From assembly GCA_030748575.1 (NCBI GenBank), contig JASMLR010000008.1:1-64000 (forward strand): 64,000 nucleotides of DNA. The letters are read 5' to 3'. The notes under the pieces are model-generated. The model searched no databases. It was not told the origin of the DNA and saw only the letters and a list, made by a program, of their open reading frames with translations. Positions 1,732 to 51,519 of this stretch are shown here, piece by piece (the stretch's first letter is position 1; the number at the start of each line of letters is the position of its first letter). Position numbers and translations under genes: made by a program. The stretch comes from Phycisphaerales bacterium. Lineage in GTDB: Bacteria > Planctomycetota > Phycisphaerae > Phycisphaerales > SM1A02.

Positions 1732-2772
1732 ATGCGTTGGGAACATCGGCGGATCACCGCCGCAATCGAGCAGTGGTTCACCCTCCATGCGCGATCGCTC
1801 CCGTGGAGGGGTCATCGAACGCCCTGGCGAGCGTTGGTGAGCGAGTTTATGCTCCAGCAGACCCAGGTCTCGCGGGTGCTTGAGCGGTACGAGCCCTTCC
1901 TTGAGCGGTTCCCAACACCGGCGTCGCTCGCCGCTGCGACGGAGCAGGAACTTCTCTCCATGTGGCAGGGGCTTGGCTACTACCGTCGAGCGCGATCTCT
2001 GCACAAGGCGTCGATGCAGATTGTCGAGCAGTTCGGCGGCGATGTGCCGCTCGACGCGGCGTCGCTGAGGAAACTCGCAGGCGTCGGTCGGTACACGGCG
2101 GGCAGCATGGCATCCATCGTCGGTGGCCACCGCGAGCCCATCGTCGACGGCAATGTCAATCGGTTGCTTGCAAGGCTTGCATGCGACGATGGCCCGCAGG
2201 ATGCATCCATGGCGCGGCGCATGTGGGAGCGTGCCGCCGCGTTGGTGGAGGCGAGCGGTGATCCGGGCATGCTCAACGAGGGCATGATGGAACTTGGGGC
2301 CACCGTCTGCGGACCGGCATCGCCATCCTGCGATGCATGTCCACTCCGGGATGGCTGCGAGGCATTCGCAGCGGGCCGCGTAGGCGAGGTGCCACAGCCA
2401 AAGACCTCCGGCCGCCGAACCGTGATGCATCAGCACGCCATCGTCGTGCGACAGGGATCACAGGTCCTGCTCGAGCAACGGCCATCATCTGGTCTCTGGG
2501 CGAGCATGTGGCAGGCGCCGACGATCGAGTCGGACCGCGAGTTGGATGTGGATGAACTGCTGAGAAGGTTGCCGGCCGGGTTCGAAGACCTCACGCGGGT
2601 CGAGAGTCTCACGCGAACGCTGACGCATCGCACGGTGCACATTCACGTGCACACGGCGGCGACGTGCGTTGGTGGGCAGGCGGAGGGATGGGTGTGGGTG
2701 TCCGATCGCGATGGCCCCGGCCATCCGCTCAGCAGCGCCGCCCGGGCTGCGCTGCAGGCAGGCGGCTCCTGA
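1732..2772 (+). CDS. mutY: A/G-specific adenine glycosylase
   Basis: Base-excision repair enzyme that removes adenine mispaired with 8-oxoguanine. Seen: SEFMLQQTQV with the catalytic Glu at 38, the helix-hairpin-helix LAGVGRYTAG near 115-124, VDGNV with the catalytic Asp at 139, and the [4Fe-4S] ligands C193-x6-C200-x2-C203-x5-C209. The C-terminal 120 residues form the NUDIX-like domain that reads 8-oxoG. At 346 residues it has the normal full length. Transcribed alone, with a -10 box directly before the ATG and a hairpin terminator downstream at 2967-2989. Confidence 0.97.
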   Translation: MRWEHRRITAAIEQWFTLHARSLPWRGHRTPWRALVSEFMLQQTQVSRVLERYEPFLERFPTPASLAAATEQELLSMWQGLGYYRRARSLHKASMQIVEQFGGDVPLDAASLRKLAGVGRYTAGSMASIVGGHREPIVDGNVNRLLARLACDDGPQDASMARRMWERAAALVEASGDPGMLNEGMMELGATVCGPASPSCDACPLRDGCEAFAAGRVGEVPQPKTSGRRTVMHQHAIVVRQGSQVLLEQRPSSGLWASMWQAPTIESDRELDVDELLRRLPAGFEDLTRVESLTRTLTHRTVHIHVHTAATCVGGQAEGWVWVSDRDGPGHPLSSAARAALQAGGS

Positions 2773-2966
2773 ACGATCGCTGCGGGGCTCTCCAGGGGCA
2801 TTTTTGGGGGCCAGACGGGGGCTCGACGCTGACTTCAGAGGTTTTTCACGATTCTGGTCGCCGGGTGGTGACAGAAACCACCGGGCTGCGCGGATACGTG
2901 GTGAGGCAGGCGCCCGATCGCAACAGGCGGCTCGACCTCCCAAACTTGCTCCCTTGCACACGAGCA

Positions 2967-2989
2967 GGCTCGCCGACGGTCGGCGAGCC
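2967..2989 (+). terminator. Intrinsic terminator after mutY
   Basis: A perfect 10-bp GC-rich stem (2967-2976 with 2980-2989, 3-nt loop) is followed by CTGTTCGCTTTTGTTC. It lies in the 262-bp gap between the convergent mutY and the HD-domain gene; nothing else is recognisable in that gap. Confidence 0.65.
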
Positions 2990-3034
2990 CTGTTCGCTTT
3001 TGTTCACCGCAGCGGAGCCGCTCGCTACGCAGCG

Positions 3035-5353
3035 TCAGCCGGCCTCGGCCGCTTCGACCTCCGCCACTTCATCTTCCGGCAAGGGCTCTTCGGGATAGGC
3101 GATCCTGCCATGATGAATGGCGCAGACGCGGGCGAGGATGGCCTCCTTCACCTTGGAGAGTTCCGCCAGGGTGAGCGGGCAGTCATCGAACTGGCCGTCG
3201 AGGAGCCGCTTCCTGGTCATGTCGTGTACGAGCCCTTCGATCTGCCCGGGCGTCGGGTCGTTCATCGCGCGGGTCGCGCTCTCGACACAATCCGAAAGCA
3301 TCAGCACGGCTGCTTCCCGCGTGAGAGGCTTCGGCCCCGGATACCGGAACTCGACCTCCTGCGGCGACTCCTTGTCGCCGGCCTCTTCCGCCTTCTGACG
3401 CGCGGCGTGGTAGAAGTACTCCACCAGCGTGGTGCCGTGATGTGACTCGATGAAGTGGATGATGCCTCGGGGTACACGGTGCTCGCGTGCCAGTTCGATG
3501 CCGTCCTTGACGTGGCCAATGATGACCAGAAGGCTCATTGCGGGACTCAAACTGTCGTGGCGGTTTTCGCCGCCCTGCTGATTCTCAACGAAGTACTGAG
3601 GCTTGTGCATCTTCCCGATGTCGTGGTACAGCCCTCCGACATAGACAAGCAGCCCATCGGCCTCAATCGCCTCGGCCGCTGCCTCCGCGATGCTCGCCAC
3701 CTGAAGTGAGTGGTCGTAGGTGCCGGGTGCCCGCTGTTGAAGTTCGCGCAGCAGCGGCCTTCTCGGATCCCGGAGTTCCGCAAGCGTCATGCCGGTTGTG
3801 ATGTGGAAGACGCGTTCGATGCTGGGGAGAATGCCGAGGACAAGAAAGCCGACGCACATGGCGGCGCCCGCCGCCTGCGCCGCATCCGTCAACACCTGCA
3901 GCCAGGCATCACTGAACGAGGGCAGTTCGATCATCGCCAGCACAATCGCTGCGACTGCGCTGACAATGGCCGCAATGGACGAAGCGCGAATGAGACATCC
4001 CCGGCTCCGCACTTCATCGAGTTGAGCCACCAGCGTGCCTGCGCCAGCCATGAGCACGATGAACCAGCCGATGGACTCCTGAAGGGCGACGGTCATAATC
4101 GCCGCTTGGACGGCTGCAAGCGCCATGGCAAGCCGCTGGTCGTACGAGAGCCGAAGAATCGTGCTGGTCAGGAGCAGCGGCCCAAGGGCGGCGGCCAGTT
4201 TCAGTGCCGGAACATCCGCAGCAATGAGAATCGTCGCTGCCAGCATCAGGAGCATGAGCAGGCAGATGGCGACCAGCCGCAGTGGGTTCCTGGAGATCCG
4301 CTGGTAACTCATGGAAGTGAAGCCAGCAAGAAAGAGGGACAACGCAGCGAGCAGCAGGCCGACGCCCATGCGTGGAACCCATCGCATTTCCCAAGAGCTG
4401 GTGCTTGCGAACATGGCTGCTTCGCGGACCGCCTCCTGATGTTGCAGGTCGGTCAGGCGGTCGCCGGCGCGGTACAGCGTCTCGCCCGCGAGGTGCTCGA
4501 TCATGACAGGTTCGACGCCGTCCATCGCTGCCAGCTTCAGGGCATCCGTTCGTGCCTTGTCCAGTTTGAGCGTCGGGCTCGCTTCATAGGCAATCCGCGC
4601 CACGACGATGTCGACGACTGGTTCCGGAAATGCGGCGCGGCGGACAATCTCACGCAGCCGCGTTGAGGCGGAACCGTTCTCGATCGCGGTGACGTTGACC
4701 GGGTCAGCACGCAGCGGCTGCTGATAGGTCCCGTCGGCCAGGCCAAGCGCTCGATTGGTGGCTGCCTGGGTCGAGAACATCTGGAACGTCTCTGCGTCGA
4801 GAATCGGTCCCTGGATCAGTGCGTGGTCCACCAACGCGTCGGTCCAGGTGGTCCAACTGGTGGTGGGGCCGTCCGGGCCGGCGAACTGCTTGAGGGCGGC
4901 AAGTCGCGTGGCGTTGAGCCCGAACTGTTTTTTGAGTTCGTCGGCAACATCGGAAAGCGATTCCGTGCCTGCGACCGCTGTGGGGATTCCGGCCAGTGAC
5001 GAACGGAGCCGATCCAGGGCGGCTGCATTGGGCACGTAGATGAAGGGTGACGCCGACCCAACTTCGTCGCGAAGCCGGGCCGTCGCCGCCTTGTTCTCAA
5101 TCTGATAATCGAGTCGGGTCAGTTCGGACTGACGGGCGTACAGACCGGGATAGACGAAGATTCGCTCTCGCCCCCACGCGACCAGAAAGCTCGCGCAGGT
5201 CAGAAACACCAGAATGATGACTGCGGAGCGGATGAACTCCGGCCGCTTGAGCGCCTGACGGGCGGCAGCGCCCGGCCGCGGAATGTTCCTGCGGATCTCC
5301 TGCCGGCGCTGTTCACTCCGTCCAGACGGTCGTGGCTTGTTGGAGGTGTTCAT
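3035..5353 (-). CDS. 7TM-HD phosphohydrolase (PgpH/YqfF-like)
   Basis: A 772-residue membrane protein. Order: one N-terminal transmembrane helix (about 43-62), a periplasmic 7TMR-HDED domain (about 65-320), a block of about seven hydrophobic helices (about 330-500), and a cytoplasmic HD domain with GLYHDIGKMHKPQYF (His577-Asp578) followed by further His/Asp ligands (IIGHVKDG, IESHHGT, LSDCVES). Characterised family members such as Listeria PgpH hydrolyse cyclic di-AMP; that activity is expected but not shown here. The Ala/Glu-rich C-terminal tail is probably unstructured. Monocistronic, starting with ATG. Confidence 0.92.
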   Translation of the reverse strand: MNTSNKPRPSGRSEQRRQEIRRNIPRPGAAARQALKRPEFIRSAVIILVFLTCASFLVAWGRERIFVYPGLYARQSELTRLDYQIENKAATARLRDEVGSASPFIYVPNAAALDRLRSSLAGIPTAVAGTESLSDVADELKKQFGLNATRLAALKQFAGPDGPTTSWTTWTDALVDHALIQGPILDAETFQMFSTQAATNRALGLADGTYQQPLRADPVNVTAIENGSASTRLREIVRRAAFPEPVVDIVVARIAYEASPTLKLDKARTDALKLAAMDGVEPVMIEHLAGETLYRAGDRLTDLQHQEAVREAAMFASTSSWEMRWVPRMGVGLLLAALSLFLAGFTSMSYQRISRNPLRLVAICLLMLLMLAATILIAADVPALKLAAALGPLLLTSTILRLSYDQRLAMALAAVQAAIMTVALQESIGWFIVLMAGAGTLVAQLDEVRSRGCLIRASSIAAIVSAVAAIVLAMIELPSFSDAWLQVLTDAAQAAGAAMCVGFLVLGILPSIERVFHITTGMTLAELRDPRRPLLRELQQRAPGTYDHSLQVASIAEAAAEAIEADGLLVYVGGLYHDIGKMHKPQYFVENQQGGENRHDSLSPAMSLLVIIGHVKDGIELAREHRVPRGIIHFIESHHGTTLVEYFYHAARQKAEEAGDKESPQEVEFRYPGPKPLTREAAVLMLSDCVESATRAMNDPTPGQIEGLVHDMTRKRLLDGQFDDCPLTLAELSKVKEAILARVCAIHHGRIAYPEEPLPEDEVAEVEAAEAG

Positions 5354-5443
5354 AGCGGGATACCGATGGTCAGTCTACTGTTGGCGGCCCACCCGGCGTG
5401 GTAGCCTCCAGATGCCATTGAACCGGGTCGCAGAAAGGCAGAC

Positions 5444-5983
5444 ATGCCGAGATGTCAAAAAACAGGGATCGGCCTCGGATTGCTCCTGATCGGAGGCTCG
5501 TGCTGGCCGCCAGCCGGATGCGCTGCCAGGCCTGCTGAACCCGCGCCGGCAGCGCAGGTGGTGCTCACCGCGGAGCAGGGCAGCCGGGCCATGCACATCA
5601 TGGCGGCGGCGGTGCCGCCGGCGCACGGGCCGCCACTGCAGCTTCTTCCCACCTCCGGTGTTCGATGGTCCGACCTTCGCCGCGCCATGGGGACGATCGC
5701 GATGCCGCCGCGGCCGAGCGGTGGCGAGACGCTGACCGCTGTCGTGGCCTCGGACATCGGCGATGACCGAGCATGGTTTGAGTTGCTGACGTCGGATGGA
5801 TGGCCTGCGGTGGTGCGGGCCACACGCTGCGGCGACGGGATTCAGTTGGAGGCCTGGATGGGTCCGTACCCGACCGCGCCCGAAGCCGTCGACGCTGCGC
5901 GGTCGCTTCAGGCGGCAGCGGCCGAGTCGCTGCGGCAGTGGGGGCGGAAGCCCGAACTTCCTGCCGAGGCCGTCAGTCGCTGA
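5444..5983 (+). CDS. Hypothetical small lipoprotein
   Basis: A 179-residue protein with an N-terminal hydrophobic stretch and lipobox PAGC (Cys about 26), so probably a lipoprotein. The mature part has an Ala/Pro-rich linker and a compact domain with WFELLTSDGWPAVVRA and WMGPYPTAPEA motifs, faintly SPOR-like in layout, but no family is assigned. GAAAGG lies a few bases before the ATG. Its last 11 bp overlap the end of convergent gatA. Confidence 0.65.
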   Translation: MPRCQKTGIGLGLLLIGGSCWPPAGCAARPAEPAPAAQVVLTAEQGSRAMHIMAAAVPPAHGPPLQLLPTSGVRWSDLRRAMGTIAMPPRPSGGETLTAVVASDIGDDRAWFELLTSDGWPAVVRATRCGDGIQLEAWMGPYPTAPEAVDAARSLQAAAAESLRQWGRKPELPAEAVSR

Positions 5984-7448
5984 TCGGTGGACTGGCCAGG
6001 TGCCAGTCAGACGCCGCTTGCAGGTGGTGCGCGACGCGAAGCACGGTGTCCTCCCCGAGCACCGGCCCCTGAATCTGGATGCCAAGCGGCAAACGGACAC
6101 CCTCGCGCTCCGTCATCGGTCCGGGGATGGAGACGCCGCAGATGCCGGCGATGTTGGCAGTGACGGTGTACCTGTCACAGAGGTACATCGACATCGGGTC
6201 CGCATGTGATCCGAACCGAAAGGCCGGGGCTGACACCGTGGGGCCGAGCAGAACGTCGACACTGGTGAACAGCCGCTGGTACTCGTCGTGGATGAGTCGC
6301 CGCACCTGCAGCGCTCGCTTGTAGTACGCGTCGTAGTAGCCGGCGCTCAGGACGTACGTGCCGAGCATGATGCGGCGACGTGCTTCCTCTCCGAGGCCTT
6401 CGCTCCTGCTCGCTGCATAGAGAGGCTCCAGCGCGAGGTCCGGCCGCGACGTTCGTCGGCCATATCGAATGCCGTCAAATCGAGCCAGATTGCTAGAGGC
6501 TTCAGCGGGTCCGAGCACGTAGTAGCAGGCGATCCCAAGGTCTGTCGTCTCAAGGTGCACCGGTTTGATGTCGCACCCGAGCGACCGCAAGGCGTCGGCC
6601 GCGGTGTCGACCGCGTTGTTGACGCCCGCGTCGTTGTCGTCGGACATGTGTTCGACCGGCACACCAACGCGGAGACCCTTCAGTGGGGCCTGAAGGGCAT
6701 CAAGGCCGGCCGTGCCCGGCGCATCGGCCGAGGTGTCGTCTCTGGCGTCCACGCCCGAGAGCGTCTGCATGACCAGCGCCGCATCTGCAGCCGTTCTGGT
6801 GAAGGGGCCGATCTGATCCATGCTTGGCGCAAAGGACACCAGACCCCATCTGCTGACGCGGCCGCCGGTCGGTTTGAGGCCGGTGATTCCACAGAACGCC
6901 GCCGGCTGCCGAATGGACCCGCCGGTATCGCTTCCGAGCGCGCACGGCACCAGGCCAGCGGCGACGGCGGCAGCGCTTCCCCCCGAGGAGCCGCCCGGGA
7001 CACGCTGGGGATCCCACGGATTGCGGACGACCCCGAACGCGCAGTGTTCCGTTGATGAGCCCATCGCGAACTCGTCGCACCGGGTCCGGCCGAGCAACAC
7101 GGCGCCGGCGCCTCGAAGTCGCTCGGTGACGGTTGCGTCGTACGGGCTGACGAAGTTCTCCAGAATCCGCGAGCCACACGTAGCCGGCTCGCCTTCGACC
7201 ATGATGTTGTCCTTGAGCGCGATCGGCACGCCCGCGAGCGGGCCCGCCTGCTCGCCTCGCCGGACGTCGGCATCGACTCGCTCGGCCATGGCTCGGGCGG
7301 TGTCGGCCCGCACGTCCTGAAAGCACCCGAGGTCGCCGTCGAGCCTGGAGATGGCCCGCAGGTGCCACTCGAGGACCTCCGTCGCCGTGACCTCGCCCTG
7401 CTGGACCGCCTGGGCGATGTCGCACACCGTGCGAGGCCGATCACCCAT
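5973..7448 (-). CDS. gatA: Asp-tRNA(Asn)/Glu-tRNA(Gln) amidotransferase subunit A
   Basis: The amidase subunit of GatCAB, which releases ammonia from glutamine to convert mischarged Glu-tRNA(Gln) or Asp-tRNA(Asn). The amidase-signature triad is visible: Lys in VPIALKDNI, and the two serines in GGSSGGSAAAVAAG and DTGGSIRQPAAFCG. 491 residues, full length. The ATG at 7448 overlaps the gatC stop by 8 bp, indicating translational coupling. gatB is not in this window. Confidence 0.96.
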   Translation of the reverse strand: MGDRPRTVCDIAQAVQQGEVTATEVLEWHLRAISRLDGDLGCFQDVRADTARAMAERVDADVRRGEQAGPLAGVPIALKDNIMVEGEPATCGSRILENFVSPYDATVTERLRGAGAVLLGRTRCDEFAMGSSTEHCAFGVVRNPWDPQRVPGGSSGGSAAAVAAGLVPCALGSDTGGSIRQPAAFCGITGLKPTGGRVSRWGLVSFAPSMDQIGPFTRTAADAALVMQTLSGVDARDDTSADAPGTAGLDALQAPLKGLRVGVPVEHMSDDNDAGVNNAVDTAADALRSLGCDIKPVHLETTDLGIACYYVLGPAEASSNLARFDGIRYGRRTSRPDLALEPLYAASRSEGLGEEARRRIMLGTYVLSAGYYDAYYKRALQVRRLIHDEYQRLFTSVDVLLGPTVSAPAFRFGSHADPMSMYLCDRYTVTANIAGICGVSIPGPMTEREGVRLPLGIQIQGPVLGEDTVLRVAHHLQAASDWHLASPPISD

Positions 7449-47041: not shown

Positions 47042-47983
47042 ATGCGAGTGCGTACTTGGGTGTGTGCGGTGATGCTGACGGCCGGGGCGGGGGCGGACGT
47101 TGTCGTTCTGGACGACGGGGGCGAACTCCATGGCGATGTGATCAAACAGGACGAGCGGAGCCTGTGGATCGATGTCGGCCCGACGGTGGTCAAGATCGAC
47201 AACAACGACGTCAAGGATGTGCGGGTGGAGCGAGCGGAGGAGGTTGCGTCGGTTCCGACGGGTTCCATCTTCCACGTCGTTGACCAGGCGCCTGAACTGA
47301 GCATCCGCCAGCAGGCGGCTCGGGTCAAGCCTTCGGTCGTGCTCGTCAAGACGCCCTCGGGCACGGGGTCGGGCGTCATCGTCCACGAGGACGGGTATGT
47401 CGTGACCAATGCGCACGTGATTCAGGGCGAGAAGGATCTCCGCCTCGTGACCTGGAGGCCCACGGAGGACGGGACGCTGGCCCGACGCACGATTCCCGAC
47501 ATCCAGATTGTCGCGGTGAACAACCACCTGGATCTGGCGCTCCTGAAGTTGCCGGCGGAAGACGGCACCAGTTGGCCGTGGGTGCCTCTGGAGGCGTGGG
47601 AATCCATCGAGGTCGGGCAGCCCGTGTTTGCGATCGGCAATCCGCTCGGGCTTGAACAGACGACGAGCCAGGGGGTGGTGTCTACAACGCAGCGGAGTTT
47701 CGACGGGCTCAGCTACATTCAGACGGACGCAGCGATCAATCCCGGGAACTCCGGGGGACCCCTGTTCAACGTCGGGGGCGAGGTCATCGGCATCACGAAC
47801 ATGGGGATTCTCTCGGGCGAAGCCCTCGGCTTTGCGATTCCAACGCGGTACGTGAAGGACTTCCTGCGGAATCGTGAGGCGTTTGCGTACGACCCGTCGA
47901 ACCCCAACACCGGCCACAACTACCACGCGCCTCCTCACCGGGTCCAGCCCGGGCAGGCGCCCATGTTGGAGAAAACCCCGTGA
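47042..47983 (+). CDS. Trypsin-like serine protease (HtrA/S1C without PDZ)
   Basis: 313 residues. Signal peptide (VCAVMLTAGAGA) then a short N-terminal beta domain (DDGGELHGDVIKQDERSLWID) and the protease: catalytic His in VVTNAHVIQG, Asp in NNHLDLALLKL, Ser in NPGNSGGPLFN. There is no PDZ domain, so it may act without PDZ-based activation. It is coupled to the following gene through a GTGA overlap. Confidence 0.9.
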   Translation: MRVRTWVCAVMLTAGAGADVVVLDDGGELHGDVIKQDERSLWIDVGPTVVKIDNNDVKDVRVERAEEVASVPTGSIFHVVDQAPELSIRQQAARVKPSVVLVKTPSGTGSGVIVHEDGYVVTNAHVIQGEKDLRLVTWRPTEDGTLARRTIPDIQIVAVNNHLDLALLKLPAEDGTSWPWVPLEAWESIEVGQPVFAIGNPLGLEQTTSQGVVSTTQRSFDGLSYIQTDAAINPGNSGGPLFNVGGEVIGITNMGILSGEALGFAIPTRYVKDFLRNREAFAYDPSNPNTGHNYHAPPHRVQPGQAPMLEKTP

Positions 47984-49740
47984 CAGATCCACTTCGCAAC
48001 TCGATGGTCGCGCTACTCGCGTGCTGTACGGCAACGGTTTCAATGGCGGGGCCGCTCCGGATTCAGGAGGTCGCCCCGGACTCGGCGGTCGCCGTCCTGC
48101 AAGTTCGCGAGGTGTCCGACCTGGTCGCCACCCTTCGGGGACACGGTGTGTTGATTGACGAGGACGAAGCCGACTGGGACGCGTACATCGGGAGTGTTGC
48201 CGATGAACTCCCCAGTGGCTTCTCCGTCGTCCTCGACGGGGTGCTGCAGGAGACCGGCGCGTTGGATCTCATCTCGTCGATGTCGATTGGCGTCGCGACA
48301 TGGATCGATGACGGGGATCGTGGGAAGTCCCTCACCGTGGCGGGCTGGGTTGACTTCGGGGTTCAGGCGGAGCCGATCACGACCGCCTGGGACGCGGCCT
48401 GGGAGGAGATTCGCAAGCGGCCGTCTGCGGTGACCGAGTCGGTGCTGGGGCGGGACGTCGATCGTCTGCAGTCGCAGGCCGATGCCGAGTCGCCCGCGGA
48501 CCCCATGCCCAAAGATCTCTGGGCGGTGCGAGCGGAGGGGCGGGCCTACATCTCCAACACCAGAGCAGGCATGGAGCGGCTGCTGGATGCTGCCGACGGC
48601 ACGACCTTCGACGACGCGCTTGGAGACTCCGAGTCCTGGTCAGCGGTACGGGGCATGGTGGGGCCGCACGACGCACTGCTCTTCGCCCTGTTTACCGAAC
48701 GGGCCTTTGAGGCAGGCGGGCTCTTTGACCCGATGGGCCTGACGCACATGCTGCAGGCCTCCACGGATGCCTTCATCGGCCCGATCCGGGCCATCGCCGT
48801 TGCTGGCGGTACAGGCGGGTCTGACACGATGGTGGAGGCGTCGGCAGCCCTGTGGATGCCGGAGGGCCTGGGCGGCCTGCTTCGGCTCCTCGCCGGCGAC
48901 ACGCAGATCGGAGGCGTTCCGAAGTGGCTCGGCCCGGATGCAATCTCCGTGACCAGACTGAACGTCAGGTTCAAGCGTATTCCGGACTGGTTGCGGCAGG
49001 TGGTCGCGTCCAACCCGATGCTCATGGGCGTCGGTCAGATGCTCGATCAGATCGAACCGGCCATGCGAGCGATTCTCGATCCACTGGACCGAGAGATGTT
49101 GATGATCGGTACGCTCACGCATCCCATCTCCCAGGAGAGCCTGAGGGATCTGCAGGTCATCGCGTGCAGCAATCCCGTGGGCCTCTCAGACGCGCTGACC
49201 GCTACGGCCGCCGAGTCCGGCATGGAGCCACGGGAGTTTCAGGGGCATCAGATCTGGTCCACCGAACTCGATGGGTTGGGTCCGCTGCCAATGCCGGGCA
49301 TGCCGGCGGGCCGCGTGAGTCTGGCAGTTGCGGCGGACTCGCTGCTGGTCGGAGACGATGCGGCCGTCGAGGCCGCGCTTCGGAGCATTGGCGACCATGG
49401 CCGGGACGGGCCGGCGTGGGCGGGCCGGGTTCTTGATCAGTTCCCCGACGAAGCGGTCGCCGCATGGGGGGGCTGGAACCTTCCCGAGAGCCTGATCGCC
49501 GCGGCGGAGGTCTCTCGGCTGCGGATGCGGGCGTGGGAAGCCGAACTCAAAGCGGACGACCCCGAACTCTGGGAGGAGATCAAGGGTGAACTTGCAGAGG
49601 AGGCGGACTCCGAATCGACCGAGCGAGCGGCGAAGTTCGCTGAAGCCCTCGGCCCGCTCGGCTGGTGGGCGACCTCGGCCGATGACGGGTTCCGCCTGCG
49701 GCTCTTTGTGCTTCCTTCTGAGGCCGCTGCTTCCCGCTGA
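47980..49740 (+). CDS. Hypothetical exported protein
   Basis: 586 residues, GTG start overlapping the protease stop. N-terminal signal peptide (MVALLACCTATVSMAG). The body (IQEVAPDSAVAVLQVREVSDLVATL, AYISNTRAGMERLLDA, MPAGRVSLAVAADSLLVGDDAAVEAALRS) resembles the large DUF3352-type planctomycetal proteins, an assignment made by pattern only. A Glu/Asp-rich helical stretch precedes the C-terminus. It could be substrate or partner of the protease before it. Confidence 0.75.
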   Translation: MTDPLRNSMVALLACCTATVSMAGPLRIQEVAPDSAVAVLQVREVSDLVATLRGHGVLIDEDEADWDAYIGSVADELPSGFSVVLDGVLQETGALDLISSMSIGVATWIDDGDRGKSLTVAGWVDFGVQAEPITTAWDAAWEEIRKRPSAVTESVLGRDVDRLQSQADAESPADPMPKDLWAVRAEGRAYISNTRAGMERLLDAADGTTFDDALGDSESWSAVRGMVGPHDALLFALFTERAFEAGGLFDPMGLTHMLQASTDAFIGPIRAIAVAGGTGGSDTMVEASAALWMPEGLGGLLRLLAGDTQIGGVPKWLGPDAISVTRLNVRFKRIPDWLRQVVASNPMLMGVGQMLDQIEPAMRAILDPLDREMLMIGTLTHPISQESLRDLQVIACSNPVGLSDALTATAAESGMEPREFQGHQIWSTELDGLGPLPMPGMPAGRVSLAVAADSLLVGDDAAVEAALRSIGDHGRDGPAWAGRVLDQFPDEAVAAWGGWNLPESLIAAAEVSRLRMRAWEAELKADDPELWEEIKGELAEEADSESTERAAKFAEALGPLGWWATSADDGFRLRLFVLPSEAAASR

Positions 49741-49754
49741 GCGCGCCGCGTCGC

Positions 49755-49770
49755 CCTGACGCCGGTCAGG
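49755..49770. terminator. Hairpin between convergent genes
   Basis: CCTGAC/GTCAGG, a 6-bp stem with a 4-nt loop, overlaps the mlaE stop codon. Weak terminator candidate. Confidence 0.3.
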
Positions 49771-50605
49771 TCCAGCCCAGTTCGAGGAAGACCGCGTCGT
49801 AGAGCAGGTCGCTCACAATCACCGCAACGATCGTCTGAACGACGGTGTCTGTCGTCGCCTTGCCGACACCTGCAGCCCCGCCGCTGACCCGCAGGCCGTT
49901 GTAGCAGGCGATCGCCCCAAGCATCAGGCCGAATGTCGCCGCCTTGAGAAGGCCCGTCAGGAAATCTGCCAGATTCAGTTGAGCCAGCGTGTTGTCGATG
50001 TAGGTCGTGAGGCCGACGTCAAAGAACAGGACTGAAACGCCGCAACTGAACGCGACCGCGGTGACGTCCGCGAGCACGGTGAGGAGTACCAGGCTTACGG
50101 CGGTTGCGGTCATTCGGGGTAGTACGAGAAACCGCACGGGGTCCAGCGCGTGCGCTTCGAGCGCTTCGATCTCCTCGCCAACCACCATGGTGCCAATCTC
50201 CGCAGCGATGGAGGCGCCTGCGAAACCGGTCAGGACGACGGCGGAGATGATCGGGCCCATTTCGCGGAACACCGCGATGCCGACGATGTTGGCGATCTTG
50301 CTCTCCTGGCCAAGTTCGGAGAGCGGTGGGTACATGGAGATCGCCAAAATCAGGCCAATGCATGCACTCACGACCAGCACAATGGTCATCGAACGCACAC
50401 CGACTCGAACCATCTGGGCAACGATGGCAGGCCAGCCGAGCCGCACCCTGCTGCGCCGGAGGGATCGCAGGTACCAGGCCCCGACCATTCGAGTGAGGCC
50501 GGTCGTGCCGCCGACCAGGTGCAGGAGGTCGATTGCCTTCTGTCCGATGCGGCCGATGCCCCGCGTGACCGCCGAGCCGCTGTCTGGATGAGGTGTGTCA
50601 GGCAT
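49766..50605 (-). CDS. mlaE: MlaE/YrbE-family ABC permease
   Basis: Permease of phospholipid-type transporters that keep outer-membrane lipid asymmetry. 279 residues, five or six membrane helices; family motifs LILAISMYPPLSELGQE, FREMGPIISAVVLTGFAGASIAAEIGTM, EEIEALEAHALDPVRFLVLPRM, and the C-terminal CYNGLRVSGGAAGVGKATTD. The ATPase (mlaF) and the MCE protein (mlaD) are not adjacent. Its start overlaps the STAS gene stop by 8 bp. Confidence 0.95.
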   Translation of the reverse strand: MPDTPHPDSGSAVTRGIGRIGQKAIDLLHLVGGTTGLTRMVGAWYLRSLRRSRVRLGWPAIVAQMVRVGVRSMTIVLVVSACIGLILAISMYPPLSELGQESKIANIVGIAVFREMGPIISAVVLTGFAGASIAAEIGTMVVGEEIEALEAHALDPVRFLVLPRMTATAVSLVLLTVLADVTAVAFSCGVSVLFFDVGLTTYIDNTLAQLNLADFLTGLLKAATFGLMLGAIACYNGLRVSGGAAGVGKATTDTVVQTIVAVIVSDLLYDAVFLELGWT

Positions 50606-50930
50606 CGGAGTCGCGAATGGTGAAGACGGTATCCAACTTGGAGATCTTGAAGATGGACGCGACGCGGTGCGATGGACTGACCAGCGTCAGGGTTCGCTGC
50701 TGCCGGCGGCACGTCTGAAGCGCTTCAACGAGCGTGGCGACCCCCGAAGAGTCCATGTAGGGGACTTCCGAGAGAACGATCTCGACGGGAAGGGTGCCTT
50801 CGGCAAGGGCGGCCTGCAGCGACCGCCGCAGGCTCGGGGATGTCGAGAGGTCAATCTCGCCCCGCGGCGTCACTCGAAGCACGTCGCCCTCCGTGGCGCA
50901 ATCGATGGTGAGCGATTTGTCAGTGGCCAT
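50598..50930 (-). CDS. STAS-domain protein (MlaB-like or anti-anti-sigma)
   Basis: 110 residues. Single STAS fold: LRVTPRGEIDLSTSPSLRRSL, then VPYMDSSGVATLVEAL, where the first Ser of DSSG is the residue phosphorylated in SpoIIAA/RsbV proteins. Overlaps mlaE (8 bp) and the HATPase gene (11 bp), so all three are coupled. MlaB is a STAS subunit bound to MlaE, so the protein may be a transporter subunit, a sigma-factor regulator, or both. Confidence 0.88.
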   Translation of the reverse strand: MATDKSLTIDCATEGDVLRVTPRGEIDLSTSPSLRRSLQAALAEGTLPVEIVLSEVPYMDSSGVATLVEALQTCRRQQRTLTLVSPSHRVASIFKISKLDTVFTIRDSDA

Positions 50931-51396
50931 CGGCTGCGTTCTCCAGGGTGAGGGTCCGGGCCGGAATGTGAACACGCATCGTCAGCAGGGTGCCGCCCTC
51001 CGGCCGATGCTGCCAGGTCACCTCGTCGGTCGCCTGCTGAATGAGATGCACGCCCAGGCCGCCGGGCCGGACGTCATCCAGGTTTCGGGACTTGATCAGG
51101 TCGAGCGGCACCTGCGTGCCATCGTCCTCCAGCACAATGGTCAGGTCGATGCCCTCGCCGGCCCGGGCCGCGCGGCACCGCATGCGAATCCGGCCGCCAG
51201 GTTTCTCCTGATAGGCGTGGCGAACGATGTTGGATGCCGCTTCATCGACGGCCATGGCCAGTTCATGGGCTCGGTCGTCGGTCAGGCTGCGGCGGCGGCT
51301 CCAGAACTCGATGGTGTCCCGGAGGATGCCCAAGAGGTCTGGCTTGGCGTCGATTTCGACAGCGATTTCAGAATGGTCGCATTCAGGGTCGGGCAT
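50920..51396 (-). CDS. RsbW/SpoIIAB-like serine kinase (HATPase)
   Basis: 158 residues. GHKL ATP-binding motifs: N-box [15 protein letters not shown]1 EDDGTQV, and G2 [10 protein letters not shown]. Such proteins bind a sigma factor and phosphorylate a STAS partner. ATG 51396 is preferred because TATGAT lies upstream with an ATG at 51414 inside or next to it; using 51414 adds 6 residues. It lies upstream of STAS and mlaE in one transcript. No sigma factor gene is adjacent. Confidence 0.87.
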
Positions 51397-51410
51397 GGCA
51401 GTGGGGCCGA

Positions 51411-51416
51411 TCATAC
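51411..51416 (-). promoter_or_regulatory. -10-like box of the HATPase-STAS-mlaE operon
   Basis: Minus-strand TATGAT (5 of 6 to consensus) directly follows the 19-bp repeats and ends 14 nt before ATG 51396. Confidence 0.4.
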
Positions 51417-51460
51417 CGAGGAACCGGTTTCTTACCGAGGAACCGGTTTCCTTACGGAGG
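51414..51460. repeat. 19-bp tandem repeat with AACCGGTT core
   Basis: Two nearly identical copies (51414-51432 and 51433-51451) of TACCGAGGAACCGGTTTCT, differing at the last base, and the start of a third (TACGGAGGGA at 51453-51460 with a shift of one base). Each copy contains the palindrome GAACCGGTTTC. The position between a divergent anti-sigma-type operon and guaA is that of an operator or of ECF-like -35 elements (GGAACC). Function is inferred from position only. Confidence 0.85.
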
Positions 51461-51519
51461 GACAGGCTTCACACCCCCGGGGGCAGGCCGTGGCTCTGAT
51501 CCAACCACCGCGGCTCGGG

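Follow-up and report, generated by a model that had tools for sequence, protein, structure and literature searches.

Why should the permease of a lipid ABC transporter be encoded in overlapping frames with a STAS protein and a serine kinase that both resemble regulators of sigma factors? This arrangement is found in the window, by which we mean the whole stretch of DNA analyzed here (64,000 nucleotides from a Phycisphaerales bacterium, assembly GCA_030748575.1, contig JASMLR010000008.1). The first-pass annotation of this DNA put forward two possibilities: a phosphoswitch that controls the lipid transporter, or one STAS protein shared by the transporter and sigma-factor control. Our comparison of the locus with its relatives suggests that a planctomycete kinase switch encoded in the lipid-transporter operon probably turns the transporter on and off. 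The reading frames were checked and the minus-strand HATPase-STAS-mlaE trio is real, with coordinates that agree with the overlaps of 11 and 8 bp given in the first-pass annotation:

50920..51414, minus strand: RsbW/SpoIIAB-type serine kinase (HATPase_c_2), 164 aa, assigned from Pfam, alignment and predicted structure
50920..50930, minus strand: overlap of the end of the HATPase gene with the start of the STAS gene, 11 bp
50598..50930, minus strand: RsbV/SpoIIAA-type STAS protein, predicted to stand in MlaB's place, 110 aa, containing YMDSSGVATL, assigned from Pfam, NCBIfam and predicted structure
50598..50605, minus strand: overlap of the end of the STAS gene with the start of mlaE, 8 bp
49766..50605, minus strand: MlaE-family lipid ABC transporter permease, 279 aa, assigned from Pfam and matches to MlaE chains

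All three products score above their Pfam cut-offs (HATPase_c_2 83.7 bits, STAS 75.2 bits, MlaE 209.4 bits, the last against a PF02405 cut-off of 22.5). The permease falls under the cut-off of the NCBIfam subfamily model TIGR00056 (187.5 vs 212.2 bits) and matches the MlaE chains 7ch8_G (E 6e-28) and 6xbd_G (E 1e-27), of which 7ch8 is from P. aeruginosa and 6xbd from E. coli. The STAS protein exceeds the cut-off of the NCBIfam ant_ant_sig model (81.8 vs 53.45 bits) and lies far under that of the MlaB equivalog (24.3 vs 90 bits). Its predicted structure (pLDDT 90.8) has RsbV as the closest fold, together with SpoIIAA, and the best MlaB chain appears at rank 26. The protein is predicted to act in MlaB's place and is not filed as MlaB. 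Weak phmmer matches of the STAS protein to recA chains were sums over repeats and were disregarded. For the HATPase, the predicted structure (pLDDT 87.8) returns SpoIIAB and RsbW as top folds, and the scores stay under the NCBIfam equivalog cut-offs (RsbW 57.2 vs 145; SpoIIAB 38.5 vs 135), which places it by sequence in the RsbW/SpoIIAB superfamily and not as the same orthologue.

The STAS protein keeps the phosphorylatable serine that the first-pass annotation pointed out, within D60-S61-S62-G63, and Ser61 corresponds to the phosphorylated serine of SpoIIAA (Ser58). The ATP site of the HATPase is also kept (N-box E58 and N62, D97, and PGGLG at 117-121), and these residues are invariant in 18 aligned relatives. 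The annotation erred in setting the STAS protein apart from a purely structural MlaB: MlaB has Thr52 at the equivalent position, and this residue is reported to matter for ATPase activity (PMC5016091, PMC7367683).

No mlaF or mlaD lies beside the trio in the window. The next gene, at 47980..49740, is convergent, and a guaA-like gene (named by eye) diverges upstream. Between the HATPase start and this guaA-like gene, at 51411-51468, there are two near-identical 19-bp tandem repeats of the TCATACCGAGGAACCGGTT type and a weak third copy; in a set of 353 loci, exact copies of their 12-base core were confined to those from the window's own genome, and the repeats are possibly a regulator site.

Candidates for the missing parts of the transporter were found where the first-pass annotation had proposed to look, elsewhere in the genome, which has an MlaF-MlaD pair on each of the contigs C11 and C77, the latter also with a second MlaE. 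The adjacent C11 products P0005 and P0004 form an MlaF-like ATPase/MlaD pair (MlaD Pfam 34.4 bits vs 25.1) that misses the strict NCBIfam equivalogs, with MlaF at 203.5 vs 441 bits (still the best of the models listed) and MlaD at 30.5 vs 135. The trio and the C11-type MlaF largely occur together: among 98 genomes, 74 have both, 3 the trio only, 4 MlaF only and 17 neither, counting MlaE at E < 1e-70 or as a contig-end piece and MlaF at E < 1e-90. In genomes of at least 94% completeness the same table reads 50/0/0/12, and all seven mismatches are at 93% or less. This table leaves out G077, G081 and G088, which have MlaF inside the operon, and keeps G072 as absent/absent, though its locus L323 has a divergent HATPase-STAS-MlaE on its MlaF contig. 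The window's genome (G000) also has a second STAS-HATPase pair on contig C22 (L314:6634-7523); its STAS site reads LSSSALG, and the pair follows a large gene that on visual inspection resembles a secretin gene.

The trio itself is kept widely, as the co-occurrence check across Planctomycetota suggested in the first-pass annotation brought out. At the level of the order we sampled 101 relatives and read the neighbours in 89 genomes (90 loci), the other 12 being without a close MlaE or without an MlaE match. Within Phycisphaerales, kinase and STAS lie beside MlaE in 68 of the 79 close-MlaE loci. The 11 loci lacking the trio comprise contig ends (G022, G051, G093), loci with the order STAS-MlaE-MlaF and no linked kinase (G077, G081, G088), and G008, G033, G069, G089 and G099, the last of which has the kinase and no STAS beside MlaE. 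Elsewhere in G008, G033, G069, G077, G081 and G088, only weak kinase-like matches were found (E 2e-15 to 7e-9). In G089, a HEAT-HATPase-STAS cluster lies on contig C11 (L322/L336), a different contig from mlaE, and its HATPase match is in two pieces. In most Phycisphaerales loci MlaF does not adjoin the trio.

Our phylum sample held 392 genomes, 77 of them with an MlaE match at E 1e-65 or better, and all 51 outside the order were read; kinase and STAS accompany MlaE in 23 of these 51 Planctomycetota loci, a frequency that holds for the MlaE group at E 1e-65 or better only, weaker matches being left out. Three loci with fewer than 1000 bases upstream (G342, G364, G418) are kept in these counts. 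The 23 loci include MlaF in 13, MlaD in 18, both in 12 and a HEAT-repeat lipoprotein in 19. L056 and L308, whose MlaF match looks unrelated, are kept in the neighbour counts. Over all loci examined, kinase and STAS occur with MlaE in 92 of 141, from 92 different genomes. A set of named contigs, mostly Phycisphaerales MAGs whose nearest two members have 80 and 77% MlaE identity, gives 70 of 80; this set overlaps the genome set, and the two counts are kept apart and not summed. The linkage of the three genes is not due to chance. Other arrangements were seen as well. In L275, L278, L287, L288, L301 and L305 the order is HATPase-STAS-MlaE-MlaD and the retrieved sequence contains no MlaF, a further way of dividing the transporter, and in a family-level group (f54: L269, L272, L279, L292, L304, L306) mlaE-mlaF and two mlaD matches occur without STAS and without kinase, with a shared but different MlaF tail.

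The most complete versions of the operon also contain a phosphatase. In two of the 92 loci, L293 (G142) and L282 (G119), a SpoIIE-type PP2C gene directly precedes the kinase, and the order phosphatase-kinase-STAS-MlaE-MlaF-MlaD forms one operon. In L293, taking longest-ORF starts, the genes are:

5216..6991: PP2C phosphatase, which has FHA and GAF domains
4728..5219: kinase
4409..4747: STAS protein
3609..4412: mlaE
2462..3595: mlaF, followed by mlaD

Adjacent genes of L293 overlap from PP2C through mlaE, and in L282 the genes follow in the same order but are separated by 6 to 24 bp. The window trio looks like the first half of such an operon, which would have been split in its order if the change ran in that direction. 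Genes of the SpoIIE family are present in 101 of 101 relatives, with 3 in the window's genome among the matches listed, none of which is known to be the cognate phosphatase. A SpoIIE gene lies 5-6 kb from the trio in only one Phycisphaerales genus (G061, G066, G070), again among the matches listed. Furthermore, a small HEAT-repeat protein is encoded upstream of the kinase in 71 of the 92 loci (for example L261-L268, L026 and L060). It has a lipobox-like N terminus with an invariant Cys and scores around the cut-off for Pfam HEAT_2, and could possibly be an envelope sensor; the window's genome and eight congeners gave no strong match to it.

In the genome set, DSSG is present in 92 of 92 kinase-linked STAS proteins. 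In the named-contig set it is present in 60 of 70. An acceptor Ser or Thr is found throughout both sets (92/92 and 70/70, or 162 of 162 rows in two overlapping sets). The ten without DSSG have Thr (nine) or Ser (one) at the acceptor position, mostly in an MNTPG or MGTPG context with one MNSPG and one MATAG, compared to MDSSG, and their kinases look intact. These ten Phycisphaerales loci (L166, L179, L189, L197, L207, L208, L212, L215, L217, L221) cluster on the MlaE tree, with 3 changes at the fewest, and a single origin is compatible. They rule out a strict tie of DSSG to the kinase, and the phosphosite argument is weaker for it. On the kinase side, one of the 92 genes is truncated at a contig end, and the other 91 all retain the N-box Glu and Asn; a strict four-position check is passed by 85 of 92, and the failures are one gene at a contig end and, for the most part, variants with GGIG or with a shifted alignment.

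Where an unfused STAS has no adjacent kinase, DSSG is found in three of eight (G008, G162, G300), the other five having SSPG (G033), DSAG (G069), DSGA (G077 and G088) and DSSA (G081), and all eight keep Ser at the acceptor position. L173 likewise combines DSSG with the lack of a kinase. Of the 13 STAS domains fused to MlaE, none is next to a kinase and one (L280) keeps DSSG. The two-by-two comparison of kinase and DSSG (92/0 vs 3/5) gives p 7e-7 with kinship ignored; rows with a missing kinase and fewer than 1000 bases upstream (G022) are dropped from the STAS count. Corrected for the tree, in the genome set only, typically 4 pairs go the expected way, 0 the opposite way and 3 show no difference (median p 0.125, not significant), on a quick MlaE tree with long-branch warnings. 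The acceptor is thus near-universal in unfused STAS proteins and may be Thr, as it is in MlaB; a hint of the kinase comes only from the DSSG context.

The MlaF proteins may carry a further trace of the STAS partner. The C11 MlaF ends in GGYAADLLG, a tail that lines up with the C-terminal residues of P. aeruginosa MlaF, and the C77 MlaF is without this tail motif. The motif [YF]xxD[LI][LIF] is present in all 30 of the MlaF loci retrieved within the order, where 83 genomes have a match. Sorted by neighbour, with kinship ignored, it occurs in 10 of 14 MlaF proteins next to kinase and STAS and in 2 of 5 next to STAS only, and in 0 of 12 with a fused STAS and 0 of 20 without STAS. In E. coli, the MlaF tail is described as filling a groove between MlaB and MlaF (PMC7367683), and the distribution that we observe would fit docking of the unfused STAS protein on MlaF.

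We consider it fairly likely, judging from sequence comparisons, that the trio is the regulatory and membrane half of an Mla-type transporter, set by an RsbU/RsbW/RsbV-type partner switch that gates the Mla ATPase via STAS phosphorylation. The STAS protein would take MlaB's place and, when unphosphorylated, would dock on MlaF with the help of the C-terminal Y-x-x-D-L-L tail, allowing MlaF to assemble with MlaE and hydrolyze ATP. Phosphorylation of Ser61 by the HATPase would take the STAS protein off MlaF and turn transport off, and a SpoIIE-type PP2C phosphatase would reverse this and turn transport on. In the window's genome, MlaF and MlaD would come from contig C11 and the phosphatase would act in trans. 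We infer the phosphorylation of Ser61 and the direction in which it acts, as well as which MlaF is the partner and which lipid is transported; polarity is the least certain step. The equivalent site of E. coli MlaB gives some guidance here: T52E is reported to weaken MlaF binding (PMC7367683), and T52A to abolish ATPase activity in a complex that still assembles (PMC5016091). Since T52A leaves assembly intact, the mechanism need not be simple release. In addition, because MlaB binds the ATPase MlaF (PMC7367683), STAS contacts that exclude MlaE would not count against a phosphoswitch. As to the first-pass idea of a phosphoswitch controlling a lipid transporter, the kept trio, the versions with MlaF and MlaD and the two PP2C operons tie kinase and STAS to an Mla-type transporter, whereas the effect on transport is a step that we infer.

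Other readings of the same operon have to be weighed. Both predicted folds are closest to sigma-regulating proteins (RsbV/RsbW and SpoIIAA/SpoIIAB), and the genome encodes a FliA/WhiG-family sigma factor, which would favor an ordinary anti-sigma/anti-anti-sigma switch merely co-transcribed with mlaE, or a STAS protein that serves a sigma factor and the transporter both, as the first-pass annotation had considered. However, no sigma gene turned up when the 92 kinase-STAS-MlaE loci (592,748 bases) were searched with FliA- and RpoD-type queries (ECF-type factors being left out), and none of the three Sigma70_r3 genes over the cut-off in the window's genome is near the trio; the nearest, the sole one on contig C84 (C84:106334), is ~55 kb away. 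The two of them other than L147 were tested against NCBIfam and are below the SigB/F/G cut-off. The linkage to MlaE, MlaF and MlaD across the phylum, the MlaF tail that mostly follows STAS, and the separate STAS-HATPase pair on C22 also speak against a sigma output, which we regard as improbable.

It could instead be binding and not phosphorylation that matters: the STAS protein would promote assembly constitutively, as an MlaB-like factor, and the kinase would do no more than dock or serve as an ATP-dependent chaperone. The assembly of the E. coli T52A complex (PMC5016091) is in line with this, as are the passages of the E. coli Mla work in which no kinase is named (PMC5016091, PMC7367683), the STAS-MlaE-MlaF loci of G077, G081 and G088 with only weak HATPase matches elsewhere, and the loss of the DSSG context in ten named kinase-linked STAS proteins. 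Such a role is harder to reconcile with the N-box Glu and Asn in every complete kinase gene, the acceptor in every kinase-linked STAS row and the PP2C phosphatase in two operons, and we think it unlikely. The switch might also work with the opposite polarity: phospho-STAS could activate the transporter, or the kinase could hold free STAS and keep transport off until a phosphatase or ligand acts. RsbV and SpoIIAA are bound to their kinases in solved complexes, and comparison with the interface described in PMC7367683 suggests that the kinase might compete with MlaF by binding to one and the same helical face of the STAS protein. The lowered MlaF binding of E. coli MlaB T52E (PMC7367683) favors phosphorylation as the off state, and the opposite polarity seems to us conceivable if rather doubtful.

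A phosphorylation switch that turns transport off, the reading we prefer, would touch on an existing proposal. Two studies suggested that MlaB is controlled by phosphorylation at Thr52, and one of them calls the regulation of active MlaB an open question, in the sections concerned (PMC5016091, PMC7367683). A survey that used an MlaB model near other Mla genes described MlaB as sparsely distributed, and the window STAS protein fails the MlaB model named there (PMC10665443). In the relevant passages, a later structure paper and a review assign MlaB a regulatory role and give no kinase for it (PMC7790496, PMC10094684), and in the portions of the open-access literature covered, with subscription papers and preprints outside this scope, we found no report of a kinase with MlaE or MlaB. 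Both halves of the system are of known kinds; what would be new is that the output of a partner switch is a lipid transporter.

If this is correct, a membrane transporter would join the outputs of partner switching. Kinase and, twice, phosphatase are encoded with the transporter, which makes the idea of MlaB phosphorylation testable with four or five purified proteins. Planctomycetota have unusual envelopes, and would gain a candidate for fast control of membrane lipids. We propose more tentatively, as something possible that we stop short of calling probable, that Planctomycetota have a phylum-wide module for the direct, post-translational gating of an envelope lipid transporter by a full phosphatase-kinase-STAS switch, with the HEAT-repeat lipoprotein as a possible envelope sensor. 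The kinase would then be the first dedicated to an MlaB-type subunit, and the STAS protein of Mla would have to be seen as descended from anti-anti-sigma factors or as their cousin.

The module shares parts with several known systems. With MlaFEDB of E. coli and P. aeruginosa it has in common an MlaE permease, an MlaF with a C-terminal tail that meets MlaB, an MlaD (MCE) protein and a STAS protein whose interface with MlaF includes a residue that can be phosphorylated. In contrast to MlaFEDB, the planctomycete STAS protein is RsbV/SpoIIAA-like and comes with its own kinase, twice with a phosphatase and in 71 of the 92 loci with the HEAT-repeat lipoprotein, and the operon is split in Phycisphaerales. 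STAS domains are also paired with transporters by fusion to MlaE (DUF140), as known from earlier work (PMC5016091, PMC1810536) and found here in 13 loci, or to SulP/SLC26 transporters. Unlike the unfused STAS proteins, the fused ones found here mostly lack DSSG, have no adjacent kinase, and go with an MlaF that is without the tail motif.

The RsbU/RsbW/RsbV and SpoIIE/SpoIIAB/SpoIIAA systems of Bacillus have the same HATPase_c_2 kinase and phosphoacceptor STAS protein, and the SpoIIE-type PP2C of the two full operons; here, however, no FliA- or RpoD-type sigma gene adjoins, and the linked output is a lipid ABC transporter. A similar logic is seen in SiaABCD and other partner switches with an output other than a sigma factor, in which a kinase and a STAS-like protein steer a different target; SiaC-SiaD (7e6g) and SiaB-SiaC (6kko) are among the structure matches of the STAS protein and the HATPase. 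The target in the SiaABCD pathway is a diguanylate cyclase, whereas the output linked to the planctomycete switch is a transporter.
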